This document shows positions 4,527-60,430 of a DNA stretch of 64,000 nt, piece by piece. Position 1 is the stretch's first letter; each line of letters begins with the position of its first letter. A program made the position numbers and the translations under genes. The notes under the pieces are model-generated. The model had not been told where the DNA came from and did not search any database. It was given only the letters and a program-made list of their open reading frames with translations. The DNA comes from Sabellastarte sp. h YS-2021. Taxonomy: Eukaryota > Annelida > Polychaeta > Sabellida > Sabellidae. Where the stretch lies: assembly GCA_964017235.1 (NCBI GenBank), contig OZ024935.1, positions 87,139,052 through 87,203,051 of the forward strand, given 5' to 3'.

Positions 4527-4737
4527 TAGAAGTAATCACCCCTGCAAGTGATTAACATTCAGTCATTTTGGGCTAATCCGCGCCTATTAGACTCTTCCTC
4601 TTGCGTATAAGCCAATAAAATGGCCTGTTAATTAATGACCAATCAAATGGTGCGTGACAAGTTCTATGCCTATATAAATAGTTCACACCTGTGTTTCTGC
4701 GCATTGTAAAGTTGTTTTATCAAAAGTGAATTTTAAT
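4527..4737 (+). repeat. Split direct repeat A1 (left end of Ngaro-like element)
   Basis: This copy begins TAGAAGTAATCACCCCTG and ends just before the leader of the first ORF. It is repeated at 9526-9735 with roughly 96 percent identity by eye. It carries the element's promoter elements. Confidence 0.9.
4639..4680 (+). promoter_or_regulatory. CCAAT/TATA promoter of the Ngaro-like element
   Basis: A CCAAT box (4639-4643) lies about 30 bp upstream of a TATA box, TATATAAATA (4671-4680). A start about 25-30 bp downstream would give a leader of some 65 bp before the ATG at 4766. A2 keeps the same CCAAT and TATA sequences, so the promoter is duplicated as part of the repeat. Confidence 0.6.
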
Positions 4738-4765
4738 TTTTGGAACAAGACTTTTATCGGCTATA

Positions 4766-6322
4766 ATGGCAACTAATGTGACATTGGATAAACAAACAGT
4801 TCTCTGTAAGAAATACTGGATTGATCATGAAAGGCCCGTCGGTTCAAAGTGTGAAAAAGTGAAAGTTAGTAAAGAGGAAAAGAGGGACACTAGTAAAGAA
4901 GTAGTTCGTAAAACACCACATGGCAAAGGTGGTGACGTAGCGTCACAAGAAAAAGTGCTTGAACTTATGGTGACTACCATGACAGATTTTATGGATAAAT
5001 TGAATGCTATGGACGAGAGGATATCAGGTTTAACTTCTCGTTTGGATAACCCCTCTGTTCCCCAGAAGCCAGTAAGTAGGAAGTCTCGCTCTCGCGAGAA
5101 GATAAAAAGGATCAAAATTTCTGACATTGATGAGAAAGTACCATGCACGTCAAGTCTGTCCGCTGTGGCTGAGGACGGGACAATTTATTCTCAGACATTT
5201 CCAGATGTGGCCGTGACTTTACAACCAACTCCCGCAAGACCAAAGAAACTCAAGGCGGACCCAGAATTGGGTGTTGTTCCACTCGTTAAACCAACTTCAT
5301 CACAGGTAATGGGAATAAAATCTCTACCCTTCAACCATAACTGCCTCTGTCAGATGGGATGCGCCAGACCAAGTGAACTTTTCTCAAACCACTGTAGTCG
5401 AGAAACCCCTCCCTCGTGATGTGAACTTTAACTTGCCCACATACTCAGATCAGTATGGTAACCCTGTACAAGTGCATCCCCTGACTGACATGGGGGGACT
5501 CCAAATACAGAATATGCAACTTCCTGTGAAAAAGACACCTACTACAGGGGAACAAGCTGTGTACATACCCGTTCATGAGAGCTCGTCAACAACCACGGGA
5601 ACCTCGCTTGCTTCTACTACTACATTGAAGGCACTCAAAGCCAACCCATTTATACAGCAACTGGTGGAGGAGCGCGTCGCGGTGCTGGAATCAAAAATGA
5701 AATCAGAATTACAACAAGGTAATACACATAGAAAGAAAAGTGGCAGGTACAACGTGGCTGACACGCCCTGTGGGACTCTGCATTTGAGGTGGCCTAGTGA
5801 GTCATGTCCAGTGGGGATAAATAGAAAGAGAACAGTGCCTGATGATCTGTCATTGGGCCAATTTACAGTAGGCTTCTTAGCGAACATTCTCGATACTTCT
5901 CACCATGATACCTGTAGACACACGATTCATGAGCTGATGGAAACGATAAAATTAGCTGAAAACCTGTCCTGGCCCATTGCCAGGGGGCCTTTGCTGTGTC
6001 AATGCACAAATTGGAAGACGAGACTTTAACTTGGAGCGACAGAAGAACTTTAGCGGATAATAGACTGACTTATTCACAGTCAGCAGTATTTAGCAGTTCA
6101 GTCACCCTATCTCTGAAACCGACCCAACAGACTGCACCCCTTAGAAAACATGTAGTGTGTAAATGGTGCAATGAGGGCTCGTGCCCTCATCAGCAAGATC
6201 ATACAGACACCACGGGACTTACAATGTTTAGCCATGTTTGTATGTATTGTTTCAAACAACTTAAGAGGAATAACACGCATACGGAGGCAGAATGTAACAA
6301 TAAAAGGAAAGCTACAGACTAG
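4766..6322 (+). pseudogene. Gag-like ORF1 of Ngaro-like element, two frameshifts
   Basis: The first ATG after the promoter opens a basic, Lys/Ser-rich protein. An early Cys-His-Cys cluster (about residues 14-29) is followed by a likely coiled coil near residues 68-95 (VLELMVTTMTDFMDKL...). The frame then shifts near 5,370-5,400 and back near 5,990-6,030. The last part (about 5,996-6,319) ends in a cysteine/histidine cluster, CKWC...C-x-H...CMYC...H...C, resembling a nucleic-acid-binding finger. A TAG at 6,320 closes the frame and the RT frame continues directly behind it in the same phase. Function as a nucleocapsid-like protein is inferred from position and finger motif only. The copy cannot make an intact product as read. 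Confidence 0.65.
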
Positions 6323-8344
6323 GATCTAACCGGCTGCATTTCTCAGGATAACATTTATCAAACTTTTGGTGATCGGTCTGATTTTAGGGCTTCCCCCCAT
6401 TTGTGTCCTCACGGGGACAGTCAGCAGTTGTATTTGACACTAAACATTCTCTCTGAATTTCATAAGTTTGGCCCTTATGGCAACTTGAAAGACGTTCATG
6501 TACTTGATTATATTGGTGTACCATTGTTTAATTTGTGTGTTAATCCTTCACTATGTGGTGAGGCCCAGAGTATTGGTATGCATTCACAAGTTGTTCATAT
6601 AAATACATTTCAAAGGACCCACCACGAGAGCAGGTCTCCCATGTCGTTTGTTAATAAAGTTGCATTCAATAGATCTGTGGGGTTTGTATGTCCTGATTCA
6701 TTTTGTGATGAGATACTTACCACTAAAACTGTTAATATGTGTAATTCATCTGATTACCTTCAATTGGTTTCTCGTGTACTGGATTCGGGTCGTCCAAATT
6801 GCAAGGGTGAGCATGTTCCTCTCGCTTCCTCTTTTAACTTGGATTTCATCAGGTCTGAAATTCATAATTATCATGATAAGAAACTTTTAGATTATCTGTC
6901 CTTTGGCTTTCCTTTGGGACTTGATAAGAACATACTTATTTCCAATAATGCTGAAGAAAATCACCAGTCGGCATTACAGTACCCAGAGTCCATTGATGAA
7001 TATATTAACACAGAATTACAACTGTGTGCCCTATTAGGACCTTTTCACCAACCCCCTCACCCTTGTTTTACTTGGTCACCATTAATGACCTGGCCTAAGG
7101 GGGCAGGCAGACATGTCATTCTGGACTTATCATTTGGGGATTTTTCAGTTAACAAGGCCACTAAACGTGTACATTATGGTCACACCCCCTTTTCACTGAA
7201 ACTCCCAAATTTGGACGGGTTGATTAACACACTTAATACTTTGGGAGATCACGCGAGACTTTTTAAAGTAGATATTTCTCGCACATTTAGGAATGTCAGA
7301 ATTGACCCAGGTGATGCAAATCCACCTAGGCATTAAGTGGAGGCATAAATTTTATATTGATCAAAACCTAGCATTTGGGGCTGTGCATGGCACGGCCATA
7401 TTCGAAAGGATAATAGATTTTGTTAGGTTCCTCATGGCAGAAAAGGGTTTTCAAATCCACAATTGCATTGATGATCTGTATGCATGCTGCCTTGAAGATG
7501 AGGCAGAGGTTGCGTTTATTTCCTTGCTCGATATTTTAAATAATTTAGGCCTTCCTGTTAATCCAGCTAAAGTTTTTGCACCCACCAAGCGTCTCGCTAT
7601 CATGGGGATTATAGCAGATGTGGAATCTCGCACGTTCAGCATAGAACAAGAGAAATTAAACGAAATCTCAAGAGAATGTGTTGCAGCCTTTGTGGCCACT
7701 AGATTATCCAAACGAGATTTACATTCGTTACTGGGAAAGTTGCTGTATATATCCCGGTGTGTCAAGAACTCTCGAGGTTTTTGAATAGGATGATTCAAAC
7801 TCTTAGGGACCATCATGATGTACAACATATATACCCAGATGACCCATTTTACACGGATGTCTTGTGGTTTCTGAAATATTTGAACTCATTTAATGGGGTT
7901 ATCCGCTTTTGTAAAGACCCAGTGGCTTATATCGTTCATGTTGATGCAACACTCACACACATAGGTGGGGTTTGGGGCTCTCGCGTCTATGCAGTCGACA
8001 TCCCATTTGAAGGTCTGGCTATTACCCAGTGCGAGATGTATAACATAGTTGTAGCTGCAAAACTGTGGAGGCTTGAATGGGAGAACAAAGTTGTAAATAT
8101 TAAATGTGATAATGAGAGTGCAGTAGTGGTGTGTTCCACAGGTAAAACTAGGAATGAACTTCTAAACACATGTTTGTTTAATTTGTGGCTTATTACTGCA
8201 AAATATAACATTGAACTCCGGGTGTCACACATTAAAAGGGTAGATAACACAGTAGCCGATGCCTTATCACGTGGTAATTTCAGAGGCTTGGGGGCGGTTA
8301 CTTGGGAAGGAGTATCAAATGAGATCTTGTCTTTATCTTTGTAG
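6323..8344 (+). pseudogene. Reverse transcriptase-RNase H region, frameshifted
   Basis: The reverse transcriptase would copy the element's RNA in the nucleus or cytoplasm. Visible motifs in order are RHVILDLSFGDFSVN (fingers), LFKVDISRTFRNVRIDP (motif A, catalytic Asp), LAFGAVHGTAIFERI (motif B-like) and NCIDDLYACC (motif C with both Asp, normally YIDD or YVDD). RNase H follows with VHVDAT, QCEMYN, CDNESAVV and VADALSRG, so the D-E-D-D residues are all present. The frame changes near 7,320 (an apparent extra base) and near 7,775. These read as simple indels and not as programmed shifts, since each restores a well-conserved continuation. No methyltransferase domain is seen downstream. Confidence 0.85.
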
Positions 8345-9300
8345 GGTGCCACATCAATGCTCCAGTGCACTAACGTCAGCCCTGAGCCTGGCATCGTCAG
8401 CCATTAGACCACACACCAAAGGCCCAGTATGCAAGACAATTTAAGTTATATCTCGCTTTTGTCATCTTGCAAGATCTTAAAGTATGTGACAGTTCTGCGT
8501 GTGTTATCATGTTCCTGGAGTTTTTGGCCAGCAATGGCATGACTTTTAGAGTGGTGAACAATTATGTATCTGCCCTGAAGTATGCATTCTCTACCTATGG
8601 TTGGGATTCCAAAGTGTTTGAGTGTGCTTTGGTTAATCGATTATTGAAGGGTATCAGATTTTCATGCCATCGTCAACCAAGTCCAAAGGCATTTACCCAG
8701 GTGCGTGAGATTGCGCGTCTTTGTCAGATTTTTGAAAACACACTGGGCCGCATACCTCCTTGCCTTTTATGGAATGCTCCGTATTTCAAACATTGCTCCT
8801 CCTTTCCCTAAGGCTTTTGATCCTACAAGCATCTCTTATGTAGGGACATTCAATTTAAACACCCAGGTATCTACCTCCATTTGAAATGGGCCAAAAATAT
8901 CCAAGCTCCAGAAAAGACTCATACAGTTAAATTGCCAGTCATTAAAGATTCAGTCCTTTGTGCGGTTACTACTTTGCAGGCCCTATTAGAAAAGCTGGTG
9001 TTGTCACCAGACCAACCACTATTTGTGTTGGATGATTTCACCCTTCTTACACAACCAATGCTTTGTAAACGTCTAGCTACTTTTCTTAGGATGATGGATT
9101 TACCCTTGTTGGGATATGGCTTTCATACATTTAGGAGGTCCGGGGTTACAATTGCTTATGATGTGGACATTTCAGTAGATAGCATTCAAATGCCTGGGGC
9201 CTGGCGTAGTAAATCAGTTTGGTCATACATCTCAGATAACACTTCCCAGCCTCTCCAGGTCCCATTAGCATTACAAACCCTTGCCAATTCTCTACCATAA
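8345..9300 (+). pseudogene. Tyrosine recombinase of Ngaro-like element, broken
   Basis: The recombinase integrates the circular cDNA without making a target duplication. The N-terminal SAM-like part is readable from about 8,425 (QYARQFKLYLAFVILQDL) and continues to 8,811, where a stop interrupts it. The catalytic part resumes at 8,881. It ends with HTFRRSG (the H-x-x-R box) followed by PGAWRSKSVWSYI, supplying the W/H position and the nucleophilic Tyr. The stop and the change of frame near 8,345-8,425 mean the copy is not intact. The terminal stop at 9,298 lies just before repeat B1. Confidence 0.85.
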
Positions 9301-9315
9301 TGCTGTTGGGCTTTT

Positions 9316-9528
9316 GGGGTTTTCTTAGTCATTTTATGTATCAACTTCATTTATATATTTAATGTGCTAGTGAATTAATAAAATGTAGTGTACCCATATT
9401 GTGGTATTTATTGTCACAAGCTACAATTGTCATGGTCTTGCATAAATCTTACGAGAATCTGAAATCTCACGAGAACATGAAATCTCATTCTTTGTCACTT
9501 TTCGCGGGCTTACAAGAATGACTGTAGA
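9316..9528 (+). repeat. Split direct repeat B1
   Basis: It starts GGGGTTTTCTTAGTCATTTT and ends GACTGTAG, abutting A2. Compared with B2 it has one extra 18-19 bp unit of the type ACGAGAAYMTGAAATCTC. It contains AATAAA (about 9,377) that could serve as poly(A) signal. Confidence 0.85.
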
Positions 9529-9735
9529 AATAATCACCCCTGTAAGTGATTAACATTCAGTCATTTTGGGCTAGTCCGCGCCTATTAGACTCTTCCACTT
9601 GCGTATAAGCCAATAAAATGGCCTGTTAATTAATGACCAATCAAATGGTGCGTGACAAGTTCTATGCCTATATAAACGGCTCACATCTGTGTTTCTGCGC
9701 ATTGTAAAGTTGTTTTATCAAAAGTGAATTTTAAT
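9526..9735 (+). repeat. Split direct repeat A2
   Basis: Second copy of 4527-4737, including the CCAAT and TATATAAAC sequences. It overlaps the end of B1 by the TAG trinucleotide, which is also found at the outer ends of A1 and B2 and is a plausible recombination core. Confidence 0.9.
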
Positions 9736-9773
9736 CCTCACCCCCACCCTGTTTGTGATGCTTGTGTGAAACG

Positions 9774-9968
9774 GGGGTTTTCTTAGTCATTTTATGTATC
9801 AACTTCATTTATATATTTTAATGAGGTAGTGAATTAATAAAATGTAGTGTGCCCATATTGTGGTATTTATTGTCACAAGCTACAATTGTCATGGTCTTGC
9901 ATAAATCTCACGAGAACTTGAAATCTCATTCTTTGTCACTTCTCGCGGGCTTACAATAATGACTGTAG
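9774..9968 (+). repeat. Split direct repeat B2 (right end of Ngaro-like element)
   Basis: Second copy of B1, beginning GGGGTTTTCTTAGTCATTTT and ending GACTGTAG. A 38-bp C-rich spacer (9736-9773) separates it from A2 and is not duplicated. Confidence 0.85.
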
Positions 9969-30301: not shown

Positions 30302-30682
30302 GAGCATGTTCCAGATCCATACTGACAGGACTGATTAATTTTGTGGGTCGGTCTGTATAGTTGGGATCCAGAATTTGGATCAATATCACACTGTATCAAC
30401 CGATTTCACCAGGGATGTGACATTCATTTCACACTGCAAAGATGACAGCAACACATTAAGTTGAGCGTCTTTTGGTTTTTTATTGATTTGAATATGTTAC
30501 TTTTTCATGATTTCAAGAATTTACCCCCACCTCAGTAAGTTACCCACAAATGTCAGGAAGCCACTGAAAGTCGGATTGTGCGGGCTAAGGAAACCTTGTC
30601 TTTTCAGGTCCCTGTGGAACCCTGCTTTATGAGTAAATCAGACATGTATACTATTAATGCTGTATCACTACGCATAGGTCTG

Positions 30683-31260
30683 GGCTGGTATTCATGAAGG
30701 GTCTTAGCCAGGTCTTAGGCTTAAATGTGGTCTTAAAGTTGAGACTTTTGTCTCAGCTAAGTTTTGTCTTAAATCCATATTCACAAAAAGGAACTTAGCT
30801 AAATCCAAGATTATCAAATAACCACAGTGGTTTTATGTGTCATGTGACCTTTCTTTTCTATTTCAAACTATACTATTGGTGATATATATCATTAATTTAA
30901 TGCATTTTATCAAAGGAAAAGTGCTGTTTTGAAATGGAAAACCTTGTTACTACACATAAACTCCCAAAGACTGCTTTAGTGAGGTGTTCTGTATAATTAT
31001 ACTTTATTTACAGCCATTTCAAATTTTGAAGTGGAGAAAAGTTTATGGCGGCCATATTTAAGTCCTCTTTACAAAATTTAAGCCCACTACCAACCAGTCT
31101 TAAAGTTGACCCCTTGGCTAAGCCTAAGACCGGTCTTAAATTCTTTGTGAATACCACTAAGCCTATGACAAAAGTTTTAGCAGTTTTTGGGCAGAAACTT
31201 GAGACAAAAGTCTCAACTTTAAGCCTAAGCCCTGCCTAAGACCTTTCGTGAATACCGGCC
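30683..31260. mobile_element. MITE copy 2 (CTG target duplication)
   Basis: The left end GGCTGGTATTCATGAAGGG and the right end, read in reverse, GGCCGGTATTCACGAAAGG are inverted repeats of well over 100 bp. CTG flanks both sides (30680-30682 and 31261-31263). The centre, including a GCGGCCATATTTAAGTCC stretch, is shared in reverse orientation with 59,930-60,430. It is inserted inside the 10.4-kb element. Confidence 0.85.
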
Positions 31261-31359
31261 CTGGTCATTACACTGGACTTTGATTCTGTGAACACTAAGT
31301 GTACAAAAAATTTGTAAAGAAAATCTTTGTGCTTTGTATTTTTAGGTAATTCACCAGTT

Positions 31360-33023: not shown

Positions 33024-33960
33024 GACTGAAACTGGCAGTAACTTTGAGACACTTATCAACAGGAGAAAGCTACACTTCACTACCATACCACTTAAGGGTT
33101 GGAAGAACCAAGATTTCTAAATTGTCCCCCCGGTCTGCAAAGCCATCTTACAGGAATTTCAACATGAATATATGATTTGTCCAACTGATACTGAAAACTG
33201 GAAATCAATAGATGAGAAATTTAGAAACAGATTGAATGTCCCCCATGCAGTAGGTGCACTAGATGGCAAGCGTATTGCTCTGAAGAAGCCCAAGAAGTTG
33301 GGCATTAATATTTCAACTACAAGGGTTACTTCTCTCTGGTACTGTTAGCCCTGATTGATACAGAGTACCAGTTCCTGTGGGTAAATGTGGGCGCCAATGG
33401 TTCATCATCTGATGCTCAGATATTCAACCGTAGCAAATTGAGAAGAAAAATTGAGAACAAAACATTGGGACTACCACCACCAGAACCACGTGGTCCGGGG
33501 GGATGGGCAAATCTACAATACTTCCTCTTGCTGGATGATTCCATTGTCCTGATGCCTTGGTTGGTCAAATACTATTGCAGAAGACAACTGACCAGAGAAG
33601 AGAGTAGCCAACTACAGGATATCCAGGAGAAGGAGAGTGGCCGAGAATGCCTTTGGGATAGTAGTGGGAAGGTTCAGGGTGCTACTGACCACCATGGAAC
33701 AGAGGCCAAAAGTAACAGACACTGTGTTAACATGAGTGGTACTACATAACATTCTGAGAAGCCATCAGGGGAGCGGAGAGACCACCCATTCCAGCAGATG
33801 ATATACAACCACTACAGAATCACCAGGGGGAGCAGGGACAGATTGAAAATGTCAGAAATCAACTGAGGCAGGCCAAACATCAATGGGACCTACTGAAAGA
33901 CTATTTCAACAACCTCGAGCACTGGCTGGGCAGGAGGACAAAATTTAAGAAGACTGAGGG
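33024..33960 (+). pseudogene. Harbinger/PIF transposase (DDE), broken
   Basis: Fragments of a HARBI1-like nuclease are readable in order: RHLSTGESYTSLPYHLRVGR, NVPHAVGALDGKRIALKKP (first catalytic Asp), WVNVGANGSSSDAQIFNRS (second Asp region), then [19 protein letters not shown] (final Glu) and LHNILRSHQG. At least three frameshifts and a stop in the last section break it. It would cut and join the transposon ends in the nucleus with the help of the Myb/MADF-type partner encoded at 38.2-39.6 kb. The 5' end is cut off at about 33,010 by the recombinase-derived sequence. Confidence 0.85.
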
Positions 33961-34246: not shown

Positions 34247-34490
34247 CAGATTGATTTTTAAACATTTCCTTGTCCTTTTATTAATTTATAACAGATCTTT
34301 GCAACATATAATAGACATAAGAGCATGGCAAGTAACATCATAAACCCTGTCACCTGACACATAACAAACACAAGTTTAGCCCCACAAATTCCAATGAAAA
34401 TTGTTCTCAAACCCCCAGATTCAGGGCAGTAAAGAAGTTTAATGACCCGAAAGACAAAATATGAAATATTATAATAATTTAGAAGAACAA
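34247..34490. repeat. Direct repeat unit 1 (empty site of the foldback element)
   Basis: A unit running from GATTTTTAAA to ATATTATAATAATTTAG is repeated at 35,607-35,806 plus 37,694-37,720. Shared landmarks are AACAGATCTTT, CCCTGTCACCTGACACATAA and AATTCCAATGAAAAT. Unit 1 is uninterrupted where unit 2 holds the foldback. Confidence 0.75.
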
Positions 34491-35606
34491 GTAACAAGTA
34501 AACATTACAACTTGACGTGGTAAGCCGTCTGCAACACTTTATAAGTTGAGTTCATAATGCCCTAATACAGAATTTAATGTAAATTAAAAGTTGCAGGGCT
34601 TTATGTATAACTGAATATATTGTATAGATTTGTAGCTAATTACTAGATCTTGCAGATATTTGTAAAAGAAGTGTCTGCCACAATTTTAAGACAAAGACCA
34701 CACACTGCCGAAACCCTATCATAAGGTAATGTCTGGACAGGTGACCCAATTTTCTATAAATTTAACAAAAGTACTTGCATAACCATACCATGCATAACAT
34801 ACGATGATGTTGTATTATAAAATTCATGTATAAAATACTATAAATATCTAAACATCACCAAGTAATATAAGAGCAGGCGTTTATGTTAATTATCGAATTA
34901 TGTAAAAATACTAAAAGAAATACTAAAATTAAGTATTTTCTTATAAAGTCATACATATCTGAACTACTGCTTCAGAAACTTCTATACCACTACTGCTAAC
35001 TGGCAAACTGAATCTAGAGTTCTAATAATTAATATAATATAAATGAAGGGAAAATGACCCGCACACAACTTAAAGTGGAAGCTGAAGAGAGGTATTAGCT
35101 GTTCTTGACGCTCATTACACAAGGTAGGAACACTTCCATAATAAGATGGCAACTGTCACACACTCATAAAAGCAAGGAAGTACTTGCTACTCCATCCAAA
35201 ACGTTAAACATCTCAAGGCTGGTCCAACCAACCGAGGCAACCATATAGTTATGTGGTCAACCTAGTGGCTACCATTAACTAGAAGAAGCAGTTTCAAGTG
35301 GACAACGCTAACCAATTACCACTGTCATCCATATCTGAAAATAAACTAATAGCAGTCATCTGTTCATTATCTCATAAAGGGTGGAACCCATGAGACAAGG
35401 GGTGGGGGTAAAACATGTAAATGACAGGATGAAAGATTAAAATCAGAGAGGACCCATGCTTGACCATTTGACCAATGAACATGCATATGTAAATAATGTG
35501 AAGTACTAGTTGCAAAGTATAGGGTTGCCAGAAATGATCTGGATGACACACGAATGCCATCCCGCACATTTCTCTTCAGCCCACTCAAGTCAGTAAGAAA
35601 TAATAT
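34491..35606. other. Noncoding interior of the 10.4-kb element
   Basis: No gene family was recognised. A minus-strand frame (35,367-35,828) mainly reads through the repeated unit and was not accepted. Confidence 0.45.
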
Positions 35607-35806
35607 GGGTTTAAAATTATTTTTATTAATTTGTAACAGATCTTTACAACACATAATATACATAAGTGCAACATAAACCCTGTCACCTGACACATAACGA
35701 ACACAAAGTTTACCCTCATAAATTCCAATGAAAATTTTTATCAACCCCCCCCCCCCCCCTCCCAGATTAAGGAAAGTAAAGAAGTTTGAAATATGAAATG
35801 TTATAA
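35607..35806. repeat. Direct repeat unit 2, interrupted by foldback
   Basis: Second copy of 34,247-34,490, with a C-run at about 35,745. It ends in TTATAA (35801-35806) at the foldback boundary and resumes with TTATAATAATTTA at 37,694. Confidence 0.75.
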
Positions 35807-37693
35807 TACGGAAGCTCTGGACTGCCAAAGTGTTTTTATTTTACTAACTTGAATATACGAGTTAGTTAACTTGAATATTCAAGTTAATAACTGGAATATT
35901 CGAGTTAGTAACTTGAATGTACAAGTTACTAACTTGAAAATACCAGTTACTTAACTTGAATATACCAGTTAACTAACTTGTATATACGAGTTGGCTAACT
36001 TGAATATACGAGTTAGCTAACTGGAATATACGAGTTAATAACTGGAATATACAAGTTAGTAACTGAAATATACAAGTTACTATCTTGAAAATACCAGTTA
36101 ACTAACTTGAATATATGACTTAGCTAACTGGAATATATGAGTTAACTAACTGGAATATACGAGTTAGCTAACTGGAATATACAAATTAACTAACTGGAAT
36201 ATACGAGTTACTAACTGGAATATACAAGTTAGTAACTGGAATATACCTTTTAGTTAACTGGAATATATGAGTTAGCTAACTTGTGCATTCAAGTTAGCTA
36301 ACTGGTATTTTCCAGTTACCTAACTGGTATATTCCAGTTACTAACTCATATATTCAAGATAATAACTTGTATATTCAAGTTAGCTAACTCATATATTCAA
36401 GTTAGGTAATTTGTATATTCCAGTTGGCTAACTTGTATATTCGAGTTAGCTAACTCGTATATTCCAGTTATTAACTGGTATATTCCAGTTAGCTAACTGG
36501 TATATTCAAGTTAGCTAACTGGTATATTCCAGTTAGCTAACTGATATATTCCAGTTACTAACTCATATATTCCAGTTATTAACTCCTATATTCCAGTTAG
36601 CTAACTCGTATATTCGAGTTAGTTAACTCATATATTCGAGTTAGTTAACTCATATATTCCAGTTAGCTAACTCATATATTCCAGTTAGTTAACTGCTATA
36701 TTCAAGTTAGTTAACTCGTATATTCAAGTTAGTAATTTGTATATTCCAGTTACTAACTGGTATATTCCAGTTACTAACTTGTATATTCCAGTTAGTAACT
36801 CGTATATTCCAGTTAACTAACTCGTATATTCCAGTTATTTAACTCGTATATTCAAGTTAGTTAACTGGTATTTTCAACTTAGTAACTTGTATATTCCAGT
36901 TACTAACTTGTATATTCCAGTTAGTAACTCGTATATTCCAGTTAACTAACTCATATATTCCAGTTATTTAACTCGTATATTCAAGTTAGTTAACTGGTAT
37001 TTTCAACTTAGTAACTTGTATATTCCAGTTACTAACTCGTATATTCCAGTTAGTAACTCGTATATTCCAGTTATTTAACTCGTATATTCAAGTTAGTTAA
37101 CTGGTATTTTCAACTTAGTAACTTGTATATTCCAGTTACTAACTCATATATTCCAGTTAGTAACTCGTATATTCCAGTTAGCTAACTCGTATATTCCAGT
37201 GAGTTAACTCATATATTCAAGTTAGCTAACTCGTATATTCAAGTTAGTTAACTGGTATTTTCAACTTAGTAACTTGTATATTCCAGTTACTAACTCGTAT
37301 ATTCCAGTTAGTAACTCGTATATTCCAGTTAGCTAACTCGTATGTTCCAGTTAGTTAACTCGTATATTCAAGTTAGCTAACTCGTATATTCAAGTTAGTT
37401 GACTGGTATTTTTAACTTAGTAACTTGTATATTCCAGTTACTAACTCGTATATTCCAGTTAGTAACTCATATATTCCAGTTAGCTAACTCGTATGTTCCA
37501 GTTAGTTAACTCGTATATTCAAGTTAGCTAACTTGTATATTCAAGTTAGCTAACTGGTATTTTCAACTTAGTAACTTGTATATTCCAGTTACTAACTCGT
37601 ATATTCCAGTTATTAACTCGTATATTCCGGTTAGCTAACTCGTATATTCAAGTTAGTAAAATAAAAAAGCTTTGGGAGTTCAGAGCTTCCGTA
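35807..37693. mobile_element. 1.89-kb foldback element built of satellite-like repeats
   Basis: The unique ends are inverted repeats of about 50 bp starting TACGGAAGCTCTG. TTATAA flanks both sides (35801-35806 and 37694-37699). The interior is a tandem array of 21-22-bp units of the form AACTCGTATATTCCAGTTA. The left arm (about 35,845-36,270) holds them in one orientation and the right arm (about 36,285-37,660) in the other, so the whole can fold into a long hairpin. Each unit contains small palindromes such as AGTTAGCTAACT. The right arm has a higher-order period: the landmark GGTATTTTCAACTT starts at 36,867, 36,996, 37,103, 37,254, 37,405 and 37,556, the last three steps being 151 bp. There is no coding capacity. 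Confidence 0.85.
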
Positions 37694-38169
37694 TTATAAT
37701 AATTTAATACCAAGAAACAAGTATCAGGGTAAAAAACAAGTACCAGGAAAAAAGAATGATTTTTAAATATTCCCTGGTAATTTTGCAAAACCCAAACAAA
37801 TAATTTCATTAAAAACCTAATAAAAATAATAAATAAATTGGTTTTTGTGTGTCACTTCATTTCGTTTTTTTGGTGGGGTAATACATTATATATTTACTTT
37901 TTTGGGGGTGTGGCGAAAGAAGTTTCTTTTAAAGTTTTTTGTTGGTGAGTGTGTGGGTTTAAATGAATTTTATTATTTCTTGTTAAACATTCATTCACTC
38001 ATTCACACTATTTTTGATATGTATTTGGGCCAAGTGTAAGTGTTGGACGGTGTACTATTTATTTTGTTTTTTTGGATAAACAAACAGCTTAATAATTGTT
38101 TTGGAAAGATTTGGGTGGCCCTTAAAAGGGCCAGTTGGTGCGACTTAATGCAGGCTGATCTGCTTATTT

Positions 38170-39600
38170 TCGCTTATTCAGCTGGATGGACTGGCTGTGA
38201 GGTCTTGACTGTTCTTGATGAGTGGAAGATGACACTTGTGACAGTGCTGGTTGAAGTTGAGAGGGCGAAAATGGTTGTGGTGTGTCAATGTGCATGTACT
38301 ATAGTACACTTGGAATCCCTCCAAAGAGGCTTGACAATCCAGAAGTGTGGTGTTGAGTGTCTTCCTGTTGTTCTGATGCAATGGAAGGCAGGTTAACTGT
38401 CTTTGATGGGCTCAAAGTAAACATCAGTTGTCTCAAAGTCCCAGGCTCCAGGTCATCCACAACTAGGAAAGATGCTGGCTGTGCTGATGCTGGCCTTGAT
38501 GGTTGCTGTACTTTGGCAATCACTGTAGCAGGCTGTGTTGTGGCTATCTGAGTAGGCGGCACAACTGGTATGGAGACTGGTTGAGTATATGGTATGGTGA
38601 GTATATATTCACGTCCTGCTGTGGCCTGTGCTGCTTCTGGAAGTTGAAATGTGACCTGTTGACTTGTTGTAACCTGTCTCTTGCATTCTTCAGCCTTACT
38701 TCACTTCACTGGGAAGATTCACTGTCTCATTCCTGAAGGTAGAAGAATCTCGCTCCTCCAGGTGTTCAATCTCGTAGCGGAGATAGTTGCAGGACGACTG
38801 TCCTGGACTTGGAGTAAGGTGCTGAACTGCACTCAAAAAATTTGAAATCACCAACCTCATCTGCTGAAATTGCCCTAAAAGTGGATCTTTGGCAGCAGTA
38901 GTGGCAACTGCAGCTGGTCAGAGTGAATGACTTGTAGTCGATGGATGATGAGTAACATCTAATGCCATTCTGATTTCCATGTCAGATTCAGTCTCTCTTA
39001 AAACATTCGGAACTGACTCTGTGGCTGCTGAAGGTCACAGTGGTGACTTCAACTTGGAAAACGTAGACACTCCCTTCCTTCTAAGGTGACCTCATAGAAA
39101 ACTGAAACTGTCCTTCAACCAGTTCTGTCTTTCAGTGTTCTTGGCTGCAGCTTGTCCGGACTTCGTCTATGTGAGTTTTCCATATCTAGTACGTTGAGTC
39201 TCAAACCAGTTCTTGACAGTGTTTACAAATAAATTCCTTGTAGCTACTGTTTCCAAGAGCCCTCTTTCCACTGCTTGTGTGAGTCTTGTCATACAGCACC
39301 TTGTGTTGTACAACGAAATCCATGATGTCTTCCTCATCAGAATCACTCAGAAAGATAGACATCATTTGTCCCTTCTTCAGCTTGGATTGAGTGCATTCTG
39401 GATCTGTATCTGTGTCCGTTCGAGGTCGCTTTTCTCCACTTCCTTCAGTCTCTGCTATCTGCTCAGTCGCTTCTGCCCTCTCTCTTTCCAACCTCTCTCT
39501 CTCCCTCTCCTGCTCTTGTCTCTCCCTATTTCTCTCACCACTCTCTCCCGTCTTTTTCTCTCTATATCCCCATCAGTATCTCCTAAGTCAAACTGTGGTT
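38170..39600 (-). pseudogene. MADF/Myb-like partner protein of Harbinger, broken
   Basis: The minus strand first encodes an Arg/Glu-rich stretch (RERERLERERAEATEQIAE). It continues with LSDSDEEDIMDFVVQHKVLY, NWFETQRTRYGKLT and NWLKDSFSFL, a pattern I know from the MADF-like DNA-binding protein of Harbinger transposons. A Ser/Thr/Pro-rich tail follows down to about 38,300 (PPTQIATTQPATVIAKVQQP). Several stops and shifts break the frame. The partner is thought to bring the transposase into the nucleus and to the transposon ends. Its convergent orientation to the transposase at 33 kb is the usual Harbinger layout. Confidence 0.7.
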
Positions 39601-45589: not shown

Positions 45590-45870
45590 ACAACTCACTA
45601 GGATAATTTTTGTATATATACAAGATTCTAAGTCATGTATATGTATGACCCAGTAAGCTGTATATACAATAAAGCAATTTTTATATGCCTCCTAATACTA
45701 AATTGAATATACCATTTATAAAGAGGTATATACAAGATACTAAGTAAAAACAAACAGGTTACTAAGCTGTATATACTAATTATTATGTCATATGTACGAG
45801 TTAGTAATCATGTGCTACCTAATACAAAATTGAATATATGAGTTAAGTTGTGTATACAAATATAAGATAA
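45590..45870. repeat. Left half of tandem array of ATATAC-AAGT-TACTAAG units
   Basis: Loose 20-30-bp units such as GTATATACAAGATACTAAGT recur. A longer landmark, CTACCTAATACAAAATTGAA, occurs near 45,818, in diverged form near 45,690 and again at 49,445, all in the same direction. Confidence 0.65.
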
Positions 45871-46283
45871 GACATTACTTATGTATTGCCACCGAACTCA
45901 TTACCCATTACTGCACCAATGCAAGTTAGAGAATAAATTTTACAACAAAGATTTAGTAGCAACACTGGCAGAAAGATAACAGATAATTTTTGTGTGACAA
46001 AGTCAACTGCCAGTATGAGGCCAAGTGTGTCCATGGATGTAACCAATGCCAAAACATAAACCAGGGGGTGAATTTTTGTGACCTCCAACAAGGTTACCCA
46101 ACATACTTTGCAAAGCATAGCGGTAAGAGGAATTGTTTAGAAAAGCAGAATTGGCCTAAATCTTTAAAATGTAAATGTACATGGTCTATCAAAAGACTTT
46201 GACATGTTAGTCTGATGGAAAAATGAAGATTTTGGAGGAAATTATGAAGGAAAATGCAGACTGTAGATTGTGAAGAGTCCCAC

Positions 46284-46892
46284 TCAGGAAAGTAGGTGCT
46301 GTTGGAAAGTAGTGGAAACCACAGAGGGATTTTTTGATAAATCATTAATGTATTTCCAAACTGAATCGGATTTCCAGGCGTCATGGTGCATAAATTGGCT
46401 GAGTGGAACACCATGATGGAAGGCCCAGGTAGCCCCAGACCTTCTGAAATCATGAAAAGTGAGATGAGGAGAAAGGTTTAAAGCATTTAATAGAGTATGA
46501 AGGTGCCTGCGTGCAACAGAGTCAGTCAGGGGAATTAAGCCATGAGCCCTGGGAATCTGAAAAAGTGGGGCATTGGAATCACGAGGAGTGGCTTTAAGTA
46601 GGGAACGGAGTGCTTTTGACAAACCCAGAATGGGAAGGCTAATGGTTTGAATATCTTGTCTGTTTTGTATGGTTTTCGACAATTTAATGACCACCAACAC
46701 TTGGTCCTCAGCAATAATGATATCACCCTTTGCCAAATGACGAGTGTTGTTAAAGTCTGTGACAGTATGTGGGAGAATATTGGAAAGCCTAAGAAATGAG
46801 AAATGGGCTAAAATGTACAGGGGCTTGAACAAGTTTGGATGTTCTAGTGTATCTGTGATGTGAATGAGACTTGTGAGAAAATTAAATATCAA
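46284..46892 (-). pseudogene. Tyrosine recombinase, C-terminal part
   Basis: A 202-codon frame carries LAHFSFLRLSNILPHTVTDF (with the first catalytic Arg), VVIKLSKTIQNRQ (beta-hairpin Lys), FHDFRRSGATWAFH (H/R box) and HDAWKSDSVWKYI (W and nucleophilic Tyr). The whole catalytic domain is thus readable. The N-terminal domain upstream is interrupted by stops. Confidence 0.85.
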
Positions 46893-47279
46893 TATTTCTA
46901 TGTATCTTTGGCTATAAGGACCTGTTTATTTTAGTGATCTCAAAAATTACTGAATCTGCTGGTGTTGGAATAGCTAGTATCCAAATCAAAAACTATACAC
47001 TGAGCTCTGAAGCCTGCCAGGTAGTTTGCAGGAGAAATTTAATTTAATACCAGATACTCTATGAAAGCAGGTAAAACAATATGATTTACCTGACCAAGTT
47101 GGAACCCAGCCGCCACCAGGAAGACAAGGAATTCTCTAAACATTCATAAGTATGCCTTCTGTGTGGCTGGTCTGAAGGCATGATACAACCTAGCTTGAGC
47201 CCTTTTTGCGAGCTGGGCCATGGGGTCGGGGAGACTTGAAACATATTAAATATCATAATTTAATGCTGTGAGATTAATA

Positions 47280-47560
47280 TGAGTATTAATCCATGTGAAT
47301 TGTGGCAATAATTGTTTCAGCTTCTCTTCAGTATTTACAGTTAAGCTCCTCCTGGATAATAAGTCAGCTACTATTTCAACTTTTGTATTTTTCCATAGTT
47401 TTGTCTAGACTTTGAGAGCCACCACTATGTTGAGCATTTCCAATTTTGTTATATGGAGATCTCTAAAATGATCACCCAAGGGTAGTGCATATACCATAGG
47501 GCCAAATTTGGCCCCAAAACCTGTAAGTGAGGCATCTAGATGAACCTTAATGTATTTTTA
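47280..47560 (-). pseudogene. RNase H remnant with internal deletion
   Basis: VHLDASLTGFGAKFG and ITKLEMLNIVVALKV supply the first Asp and the Glu. VADLLSRRSLTVNTEEKL supplies the end of the domain. The segment that should carry the D-N-x-A catalytic motif between them is missing, so roughly 50-60 codons have been deleted. Confidence 0.75.
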
Positions 47561-47689
47561 TTTTCCTGTAATTTTTCTTGAGGTATAGAGATAGTTTTCT
47601 CCACAGTATTGATTAGTATTCCTAAGCAAATTACTTCTGTGGAAGGTGGAACTAATTTTTTGTGACTAACCTCTAAACCTAATTCCTGA

Positions 47690-48609
47690 AGTAAGGATAG
47701 TAAAATTAGTAGGATTGATGAATGTTTGAGGGCAATCCAATATGTATAAGATCATCAACATAATTTAAGAATTTGCATTATGACCATGACACTTCATAAT
47801 GTATCTTATAGCATCGCTGCATCTCTCAAAAAATCCAGATCCGAGATGAAATCCGAATGGGAGAGATCCGTCCAGATAGAGGTTATTATGCACTATACCT
47901 AGCAAATTTATGTCTCCTGGATCTATTCTAAGATGTCTAAATGCCCTGCTTATGTCTACTTTATATAACAAAGCCCCAGGGCTAAGATCCTTTAATTTCC
48001 TTGTAATTTGATCTATAGACAGATACTGCAAAGTAAAATAAGTATCTAAATATTTGCATTTATGAACAAAGTCATTAACCGAGGCCCCATCGGCCAACTG
48101 AGGTCAACTATAGTCCACCTAGTTGTGGAATTTTGCTTTTCTCTGGTCATAAGTGGAGAGATATGAACAGGGAAAGAAAGATCATCAAATGGGCCATAAA
48201 GAGCGCCATGTTTTAATTCTTCCCTAATATAAGCACCTACATCTGCTTGAAATTGATTTACAGATGTATGGTTAGCACTTGAAGAGCTCAAAACGCTATC
48301 TCTATGAAAATCTAGGGGGAACCCAAACTGCAATAAATCGGGCAATTGCTGGTCCCAGTAGTCTTTTAGGTAGGTTCTCCATGTGTTAGAATTCAAGTTG
48401 GTCTCCACAGGGATACGACAATTTAGAAAATTTGGCACCCCACTTTGTCTGACAAGATTATGTGCCTCAATAATATCAGGTACTGTGTCCCACTTGACTG
48501 GAGGGCCAGTATATACTTTAAGATTGGTTAAGGGGACATAGCCAAAAACTTCTTCACTATTAGAGAGGCAAGCCTTATAATCTTTACAATATTCTTTCTG
48601 ATTCCACAC
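47690..48609 (-). pseudogene. Reverse transcriptase relic
   Basis: WTIVDLSWP (fingers), ALLYKVDISRAFRHLRIDPG (motif A, Asp), GSLPFGFHLGSGFFERCSDA (motif B) and LNYVDDLIHIGLP (motif C with YVDD) are in the right order. One frameshift lies near 48,070 and another around 47,760. Upstream, LLQFGFPLDFHRD resembles the LSFGFPLGLDKN of the 4.5-kb element. Confidence 0.85.
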
Positions 48610-49350
48610 CTACAATGGAATTTTTTCTTCCCTAACATACTGGCAAGAGGTGAGGTAGAGAAGGGCGGTACCGAATGCCTGGCCAGTCTCTAGAATTGGC
48701 TGGAACCAAGGTCCTCTATCTCCCAGAGTAGCCACATGTTGTATACCTGTATTGGAAGCATTTTCTATGACAACACCTACTTTGACACTAGTAGTTAGAG
48801 AAGTTTGGTTAGCTTTGTTAGTGTTGCTTGGTACCCTAGTTGCATGTTTGGAAGAGATATTAGTATTTTTTACAACCTATGAGCTGTTGTGAGTGTTTCT
48901 AGCTTTCTGACCCTGCATTATATTTTTTTGCTACTATTTTTATAGTTGTAGGAACAGCTAAGGCTGTGACCATACCATCCAGACCACTGGGTGCATTCTC
49001 TTGAGTCTCAAACAAATATTCGTGTGAATCTTCTAATACTTTAAATCTATTTTTAATTGGAACTTGAGATGTGCCAGAAAACTTATCAAAAGCATGTTTA
49101 TCCCTAGCTTTTGATTTGAGACCAGATGAGGAAGCAGTACTCACGGGTCTGGAGGGTTTAACACTAACACTGTTTGGGTTTAACACCAAACTTGGAAGAA
49201 GTAACAAAATCGGCATTTGCATTTCTTTGAAGAACAGTGATGATGCGAGTACCCTTTCCGTTATGTCACTGGTTAGCAGAATAACCCTGGGGTCGGTAAC
49301 TTGTCTTGCTGTATTTTGACTTAGGAACCTTAAATTCTTGTTTGAAACTT
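48610..49350 (-). pseudogene. Gag-like ORF1 relic
   Basis: A minus-strand frame includes SRPVSTASSSGLKSKARDKH and PIKNRFKVLEDSHEYLFETQ, a basic Ser-rich region followed by an NRFKVLED-type segment common in ORF1 proteins of such elements. The open frame seems to run on into the tandem array, but that N-terminal part is just translated repeat. The role is inferred from position upstream of the RT. Confidence 0.5.
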
Positions 49351-49436
49351 CCAGCAATTTTTGTCTGCTATTCCATACAATTCTATGGCCAAAACATGTA
49401 CCAATGTGTTGACTCACGCCCAAGTTTACTCGTTTA

Positions 49437-49690
49437 TATGTGCTACCCAATACAAAATTGAATATATGAGTTATTAAGTGGTACATACAACATTTTAAGT
49501 TGTATATACAATATACTATATCGTATATATGAGTTACTAAGTCATATATACAAGATACTAAGTCATGTATATGAGTTATTAAGTTGTATATACGAGATAC
49601 GAAGTCATTTTTACAAGTTATAAATTCACATAGATGAGACACTAAGTCATATATACGAGTCATTAAGTCATATACATGTATATGTTATAA
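49437..49690. repeat. Right half of the tandem array
   Basis: Units such as GTCATATATACAAGATACTA and GTCATGTATATGAGTTATTA recur every 20-30 bp. The landmark ACAAAATTGAATATATGAGT is shared with the left half. Confidence 0.7.
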
Positions 49691-49879
49691 TGTCGTATAT
49701 TCGACTTAATATCATAACAAATTTTGGCAGTCAAAAGCTTCGGTAGAATATGTATCACTAGAAAGGTATTTTCATAATTTTTCTGCTCATTTAAATATTT
49801 GCATTTCAGTCGATCCGCACTTGCACTGGCATATAGAGGTTCCCGAATGCAGAAAGTTAAAATTGTCAATATACTTGTA

Positions 49880-59929: not shown

Positions 59930-60430
59930 GGGCCGATTTCATGAACGGACTTAAGCCTGGTTTTGGGCTTAAGTTTAAAACTTTGGTCTTAAATTCTGTC
60001 AAAAATGTGCTAAGTTAGCGGGCTTAGATTTAAGTCTGGGTGGTAGTGGGCTTAAATTTTGTAAAGAGGACTTAAATATGGCCGCCATAAACTTTTCTCC
60101 ACTTGAAAAAATTTGAAAAGGCTGTAAATAAAGTATAATTACACAGAACACCTTACTGAAGTAGTCTTTGGGAAGTTTATGTGTGGCAACAAGGTTTTCC
60201 ATTTCAAAATAGCACTTATCCTTAGATAGAATGCATCAAATGAAGGATATAAAAGGTCACATGACACAGAAAACCACTGTGGTTATTTGATAAGCTTGGA
60301 CTTAGCTAAGTCACCTTTGTGAAATCTATTTTAAGTCCCACACCCAGCTAAGACCAAAGTCTTAGATTTTTTAAGTCCCTGACTTAGCCAATAAAGGGAC
60401 TTAGTTTAAGTCCTTTAGTGAAATTGGCCC
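59930..60430. mobile_element. MITE copy 3 (CAG target duplication)
   Basis: The left end GGGCCGATTTCATGAACGG and the right end, read in reverse, GGGCCAATTTCACTAAAGG are inverted repeats. CAG flanks both (59927-59929 and 60431-60433). The interior is a reverse-oriented relative of 30,683-31,260. It may fall in the 3' region of the BEN-domain gene. Confidence 0.85.

Follow-up and report, generated by a model that had tools for sequence, protein, structure and literature searches.

The 64-kb window (the whole stretch of DNA analysed here) holds an element of ~1.9 kb at 35807-37693, whose termini read TACGG...CCGTA, which is flanked on either side by TTATAA and whose body consists of inverted arrays of a 21/22-bp unit with higher-order blocks. 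A paralogous unit with an empty site lies upstream of it, and a related array with one TIR lies downstream. The features are listed below in window coordinates, with the strand where one applies and the basis in brackets.

34276-34500, plus strand: paralogous unit with the empty site, in which TTATAA occurs once, at 34469-34474 (match to the joined flanks)
35801-35806: TTATAA, putative left target-site duplication (sequence; border-model scores against the empty site)
35807-35844, plus strand: left TIR, part outside the array, TACGGAAGCTCTGGACTGCCAAAG... (sequence and TIR alignment)
35845-36276, plus strand: left arm, ~20 units of 21/22 bp, consensus TAACTGGAATATACGAGTTA (array splitting, unit consensus)
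36277-36298: unit at the orientation switch, where the arms abut without a unique middle (array splitting)
36299-37656, minus strand: right arm, ~63 units of 21/22 bp in the opposite orientation, with 107/129/151-bp higher-order blocks distally
37657-37693, minus strand: right TIR, part outside the array, ...CAGAGCTTCCGTA (sequence and TIR alignment)
37694-37699: TTATAA, putative right target-site duplication (sequence; border-model scores against the empty site)
45600-45865: third and most degenerate array, no TIR seen (sequence; 63 bits)
49462-49692, minus strand: diverged 21-bp array of a putative second, degenerate copy, with units of unclear orientation (TRF; tile scores)
49693-49745, minus strand: TIR of the putative second copy with its first unit, TACCGAAGCTTTTGACTGCCAAAAT... 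(80% over 54 bp against the left TIR, 75% over 53 bp against the right)

Several further features were recorded in the window. A retroelement at 4527-9968, which we take to be of DIRS/Ngaro type, contains ORFs resembling reverse transcriptase and RNase H, neither of which reaches the Pfam cut-off, together with direct repeats at 4527-4737 and 9525-9735 that are 96% identical. A 196-bp inverted pair (972-1167 and 31073-31268) matches at 91%, and a dispersed 44-bp repeat beginning GGGCCGGTATTCACAAAGGG is found at 979-1022 and 30682-30725 (91%) and at 1080-1123 and 59930-59973 (64%). Upstream of the element, 33309-33746 encodes a transposase fragment with a match to DDE_Tnp_4 (Pfam), presumably Harbinger-like. 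Downstream, the minus strand carries a histone 3' UTR stem-loop at 38091-38137 (37.3 bits, above the Rfam gathering score); no histone was recognised by eye among five minus-strand ORFs read beside it, and the ORF at 38299-38700 had no match in a PDB sequence search.

At the ends of the element, TACGGAAGCTCTG occurs without mismatch at only two sites in the window, 35807-35819 on the plus strand and 37681-37693 on the minus strand. The left and right TIRs are 93.3% identical over 60 bp, a span covering TTATAA as well as part of the first unit, and the portion lying outside the array amounts to 38 bp on the left and 37 bp on the right. Between these ends TRF identified 84 copies of a 22-bp unit at 35844-37656 (units of 21/22 bp, ~1.8 kb in total), within which the stop-to-stop ORF list of the window (120 ORFs) contains no ORF of at least 70 aa. 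Unit counts per arm were obtained by dividing arm length by mean unit length, a few units being split irregularly. The two arms can be told apart by short motifs: all 10 occurrences of GAATATAC fall inside 35851-36239 in the left arm and all 41 occurrences of GTATATTC inside 36327-37642 in the right arm. Furthermore, reverse-complementing the left consensus TAACTGGAATATACGAGTTA (15 units, all with perfect ends) yields the right one (53 units) exactly. The unit is itself an imperfect palindrome in which 16 of 20 positions equal its own reverse complement, so that the evidence for opposed arms comes from a few asymmetric positions; three left-arm units carry a symmetric core that is uninformative on orientation. 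The segregation of orientation-specific motifs by arm, and the exact complementarity of the consensuses, bear out the opposed arrays of a 21-22-bp unit described in an earlier, sequence-only reading of this DNA. The hallmark of a foldback element, long inverted repeats built from tandem units, with a middle that is short or missing, is present in the form of abutting 393-bp arms (flank included) that are 90% complementary. Taken with the TIRs, the flanking TTATAA and the paralogous empty site, these opposed arms confirm the earlier description of a foldback made of satellite units.

A higher-order pattern is superimposed on the units. In the right arm, the blocks between signatures measure 129, 107, 151, 151 and 151 bp, with a 100-bp end piece in addition, and the left-arm signatures are spaced 151 bp apart; the lengths 107, 129 and 151 bp differ by steps of one 22-bp unit. 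Identity among six right-arm pieces is 94-97%, and two left-arm pieces match these at 87-95%, with end pieces in this alignment compared over ~100 bp. Two further inward pieces, one per arm (L_in_36247 and R36716_151), are not counted in these ranges; they match the other rows at 86-91%. Read from the ends inward, the arms mirror one another at an identity of ~0.90 for ~380 bp (90% over 393 bp including flank), which then falls sharply to ~0.3. With the mirror offset by 151 bp the match is equally good (0.899 versus 0.901 without offset), so the arms may have been homogenised rather than copied once. The mirror pattern is thus compatible with a single inverted copying and with later homogenisation alike.

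We then examined the borders against the sister unit, which lies 1.3 kb away. Aligned to the joined flanks, it agrees with them at 176 of 196 ungapped positions, and the alignment has several gaps. Against this unit we scored five pairs of borders, allowing for duplications of 0-10 bp, and compared the models with equal flanks. The symmetric TACGG..CCGTA ends with a 6-bp duplication scored highest of those tried (49), an asymmetric 8-bp model one point lower (48), and models with a 2-bp TA or AT duplication, or none, reached 23-31. The fixed borders and 6-bp duplication of the sequence-only reading are therefore well supported, with 6 bp as the best reading and 8 bp nearly as good, each judged from a single insertion. 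The empty site that it had placed in this unit also stands in that TTATAA occurs once there and twice at the element, with the caveat that the unit is a paralogue ~10% diverged and not an allele. ISL2EU elements duplicate AT. According to an excerpt of PMC10045372, TA is the duplication of Mariner/Tc1. Both 2-bp duplications were set aside, as the empty sites they predict fit the sister unit much worse (29 for TA and 31 for AT, against 49), and the same applies to TTATAA as part of a longer TIR (29 versus 49).

Related arrays are present elsewhere in the window. Tiles at 49.0, 45.5 and 49.5 kb matched the element with 83, 63 and 55 bits, respectively, and were the only ones outside it to score above the best of 40 shuffles (33.7). 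Next to the array at 49.4 kb lies a TIR whose matches within the window have E-values of 1.1e-7 (left TIR plus first unit) and 2e-4 (right TIR). Without its array, this match at 49.7 kb scores 34, barely above the maximum of 32 in 60 shuffles; the 13-bp end, allowing up to three mismatches, has 14 matches in the window against 7.07 expected, the one at 49733 having three mismatches. As the TIR-only match barely exceeds the shuffles and the 13-bp end by itself cannot be told from chance at this site, the case for a second copy rests on TIR and array together. Contrary to the earlier claim, the TIRs are not unique, given the diverged one at 49693-49745, and this related TIR-plus-array copy, 12 kb away, speaks against the element being the sole bearer of such termini. 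Neither a left end nor a GAATAT duplication of the 49-kb copy was found with exact short patterns.

The window contains one complete copy and two further arrays, of which one carries one TIR and the other shows none; these two degenerate arrays look like decayed copies. They flank, on either side, the remnant of a tyrosine-recombinase retroelement, and it may be that the arrays at 45.6 and 49.4 kb are one old copy split by the insertion of this retroelement. The remnant itself occupies 45810-49490 on the minus strand, with a Phage_integrase match within 46284-46925 (Pfam), and a 53-bp near-direct repeat starting ATGTGCTACC is found on both sides of it (87%).

As to classification, we consider 35807-37693 to be a foldback DNA transposon that is non-autonomous and probably belongs to the IS3EU (GingerRoot) superfamily. 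In the excerpts of the papers cited here and below, TA..TA termini are a constant feature of complete IS3EU families, whose target-site duplications are usually 6 bp long (PMC10045372), and a set from rust fungi has the ends TAYGG..CCRTA, TIRs longer than 30 bp and 6-bp duplications (PMC12730594). The element begins with TACGG at 35807 and ends with CCGTA at 37693 (the degenerate copy reads TACCG at 49745), its TIRs extend for 38 and 37 bp outside the array, and a 6-bp duplication fits its one insertion, while exact short patterns revealed no duplication for the 49-kb copy. It is this match of ends and duplication to the published features of IS3EU that leads to the superfamily reading, an assignment beyond the sequence-only reading, which named no superfamily. 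Among the 20 of the window's 120 ORFs (at least 70 aa) that were scanned with Pfam, no IS3EU or integrase-type transposase was detected, which is no proof of absence. Kolobok was set aside, as it duplicates TTAA and has 5'-RR ends (excerpt of PMC9587614).

If this classification is correct, an IS3EU transposase encoded elsewhere would bind the 38-bp ends and act in trans, and the element would move by cut-and-paste, leaving a 6-bp duplication, here TTATAA. One arm, including its higher-order pattern, would at some point have been copied in inverted orientation, after which the right arm would have grown as single 22-bp units and blocks of 107-151 bp were gained and lost, through unequal exchange or replication slippage aided by the near-palindromic units. 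As the ends decay, the arrays would persist as degenerate tandem repeats, and those at 49.4 and 45.6 kb could represent such a decay series. That elements of this kind seed satellite DNA is compatible with these data, and goes no further than that; the TRF-listed arrays of the 64-kb window include no long stand-alone satellite, and the related arrays are short and degenerate. We tentatively raise the possibility that an IS3EU foldback family with arms made purely of near-palindromic 21/22-bp satellite is the source of the genome's satellite of that unit, with insertions delivering arrays, arms expanding in place and loss of the TIRs freeing the satellite. Should this be true, both-TIR, one-TIR and no-TIR stages would lie within 14 kb of each other, the last two perhaps being one split copy. 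With its paralogous empty site, readable arm blocks and decayed relatives nearby, the locus offers a compact place for testing how satellites begin.

The opposite order of events, in which a transposon captured a satellite that already existed, is compatible with the anatomy of our best explanation. The capture of existing tandem repeats by MITEs has been proposed by Scalvenzi and Pollet, as described in an excerpt of PMC12628747, and the array remnant without a visible TIR at 45.6 kb would suit such a history. We nevertheless regard it as rather doubtful, since the diverged copy at 49.7 kb shares the TIR-array junction, and TIR and array were thus seemingly together before the copies separated.

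Returning to the assignment of the element to IS3EU, it could instead be a foldback belonging to a different superfamily, such as Mutator, P or hAT, in which the TA ends and the apparent 6-bp duplication arose by chance. Most described foldbacks seem to be Mutator elements, with exceptions (PMC4079207), and Galileo belongs to the P superfamily (PMC3573991). In addition, the asymmetric 8-bp duplication TTATAATA scores almost as well as the symmetric 6-bp one, and the 20 scanned ORFs include no transposase that would fit IS3EU. Against this, the symmetric TACGG..CCGTA ends agree with those printed for the IS3EU set of PMC12730594, and the 6-bp duplication agrees with both that paper and PMC10045372, so that we judge an origin in another superfamily unlikely. 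That no transposition took place, and that this is an ordinary inverted satellite or an artefact of the assembly, is highly improbable: the units are near-palindromic and the window alone leaves room for an assembly fold-back, but the arms are unequal in length and 10% diverged, unlike a simple fold-back artefact, and a plain satellite would not be expected to have TIRs outside the array, to be flanked by a 6-bp duplication or to have a paralogous empty site.

Searches of viral contigs with a 23-base degenerate TIR pattern and with a 21-base array pattern returned no matches. The lone match to an 18-base TIR pattern, on viral contig L001, was attributed to chance, as it diverges right after the 18 bases and no array follows in the 250 bases read.

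Both foldbacks that carry tandem arrays and satellites derived from such elements are already known. Tetris of Drosophila virilis is a non-autonomous foldback with tandem repeats in its TIRs, and its repeats also occur in satellite-like arrays; the element described here resembles it in the first two respects. According to an excerpt of PMC4079207, Tetris has units of ~220 bp, flanking and middle domains and 8-10-bp target-site duplications and is placed in Mutator by its authors, whereas our element has 21/22-bp units, no middle domain and a 6-bp duplication as its best reading. Galileo likewise has long, internally repetitive TIRs, and in its F subfamily a single copy has different repeat numbers in its two TIRs, but its tandem repeat region is ~210 bp and its transposase is of P type (excerpt of PMC3573991). 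Models leading from MITEs to satellites are reviewed in PMC12628747. In Table 1 of PMC8268682, two satellites of Crassostrea gigas, CgiSat47 (129 bp, 69.8% AT) and CgiSat35 (690 bp), are annotated as DNA/IS3EU; the likeness of CgiSat47 to the 129-bp block of our element (72% AT) is one of length and composition, and is a lead only. In the open-access literature searched, we found no foldback assigned to IS3EU, an absence that is weak evidence, and the present reading would extend the foldback architecture to this superfamily. Of the 35 papers there in which IS3EU is mentioned, only the oyster-satellite paper PMC8268682 also contains the term foldback, and that among its references. With IS3EU the element shares TA..TA ends and a probable 6-bp duplication, its TACGG..CCGTA falling within the TAYGG..CCRTA of the rust-fungus set, and it stands apart in that it contains no internal transposase and its whole body is an inverted tandem array.
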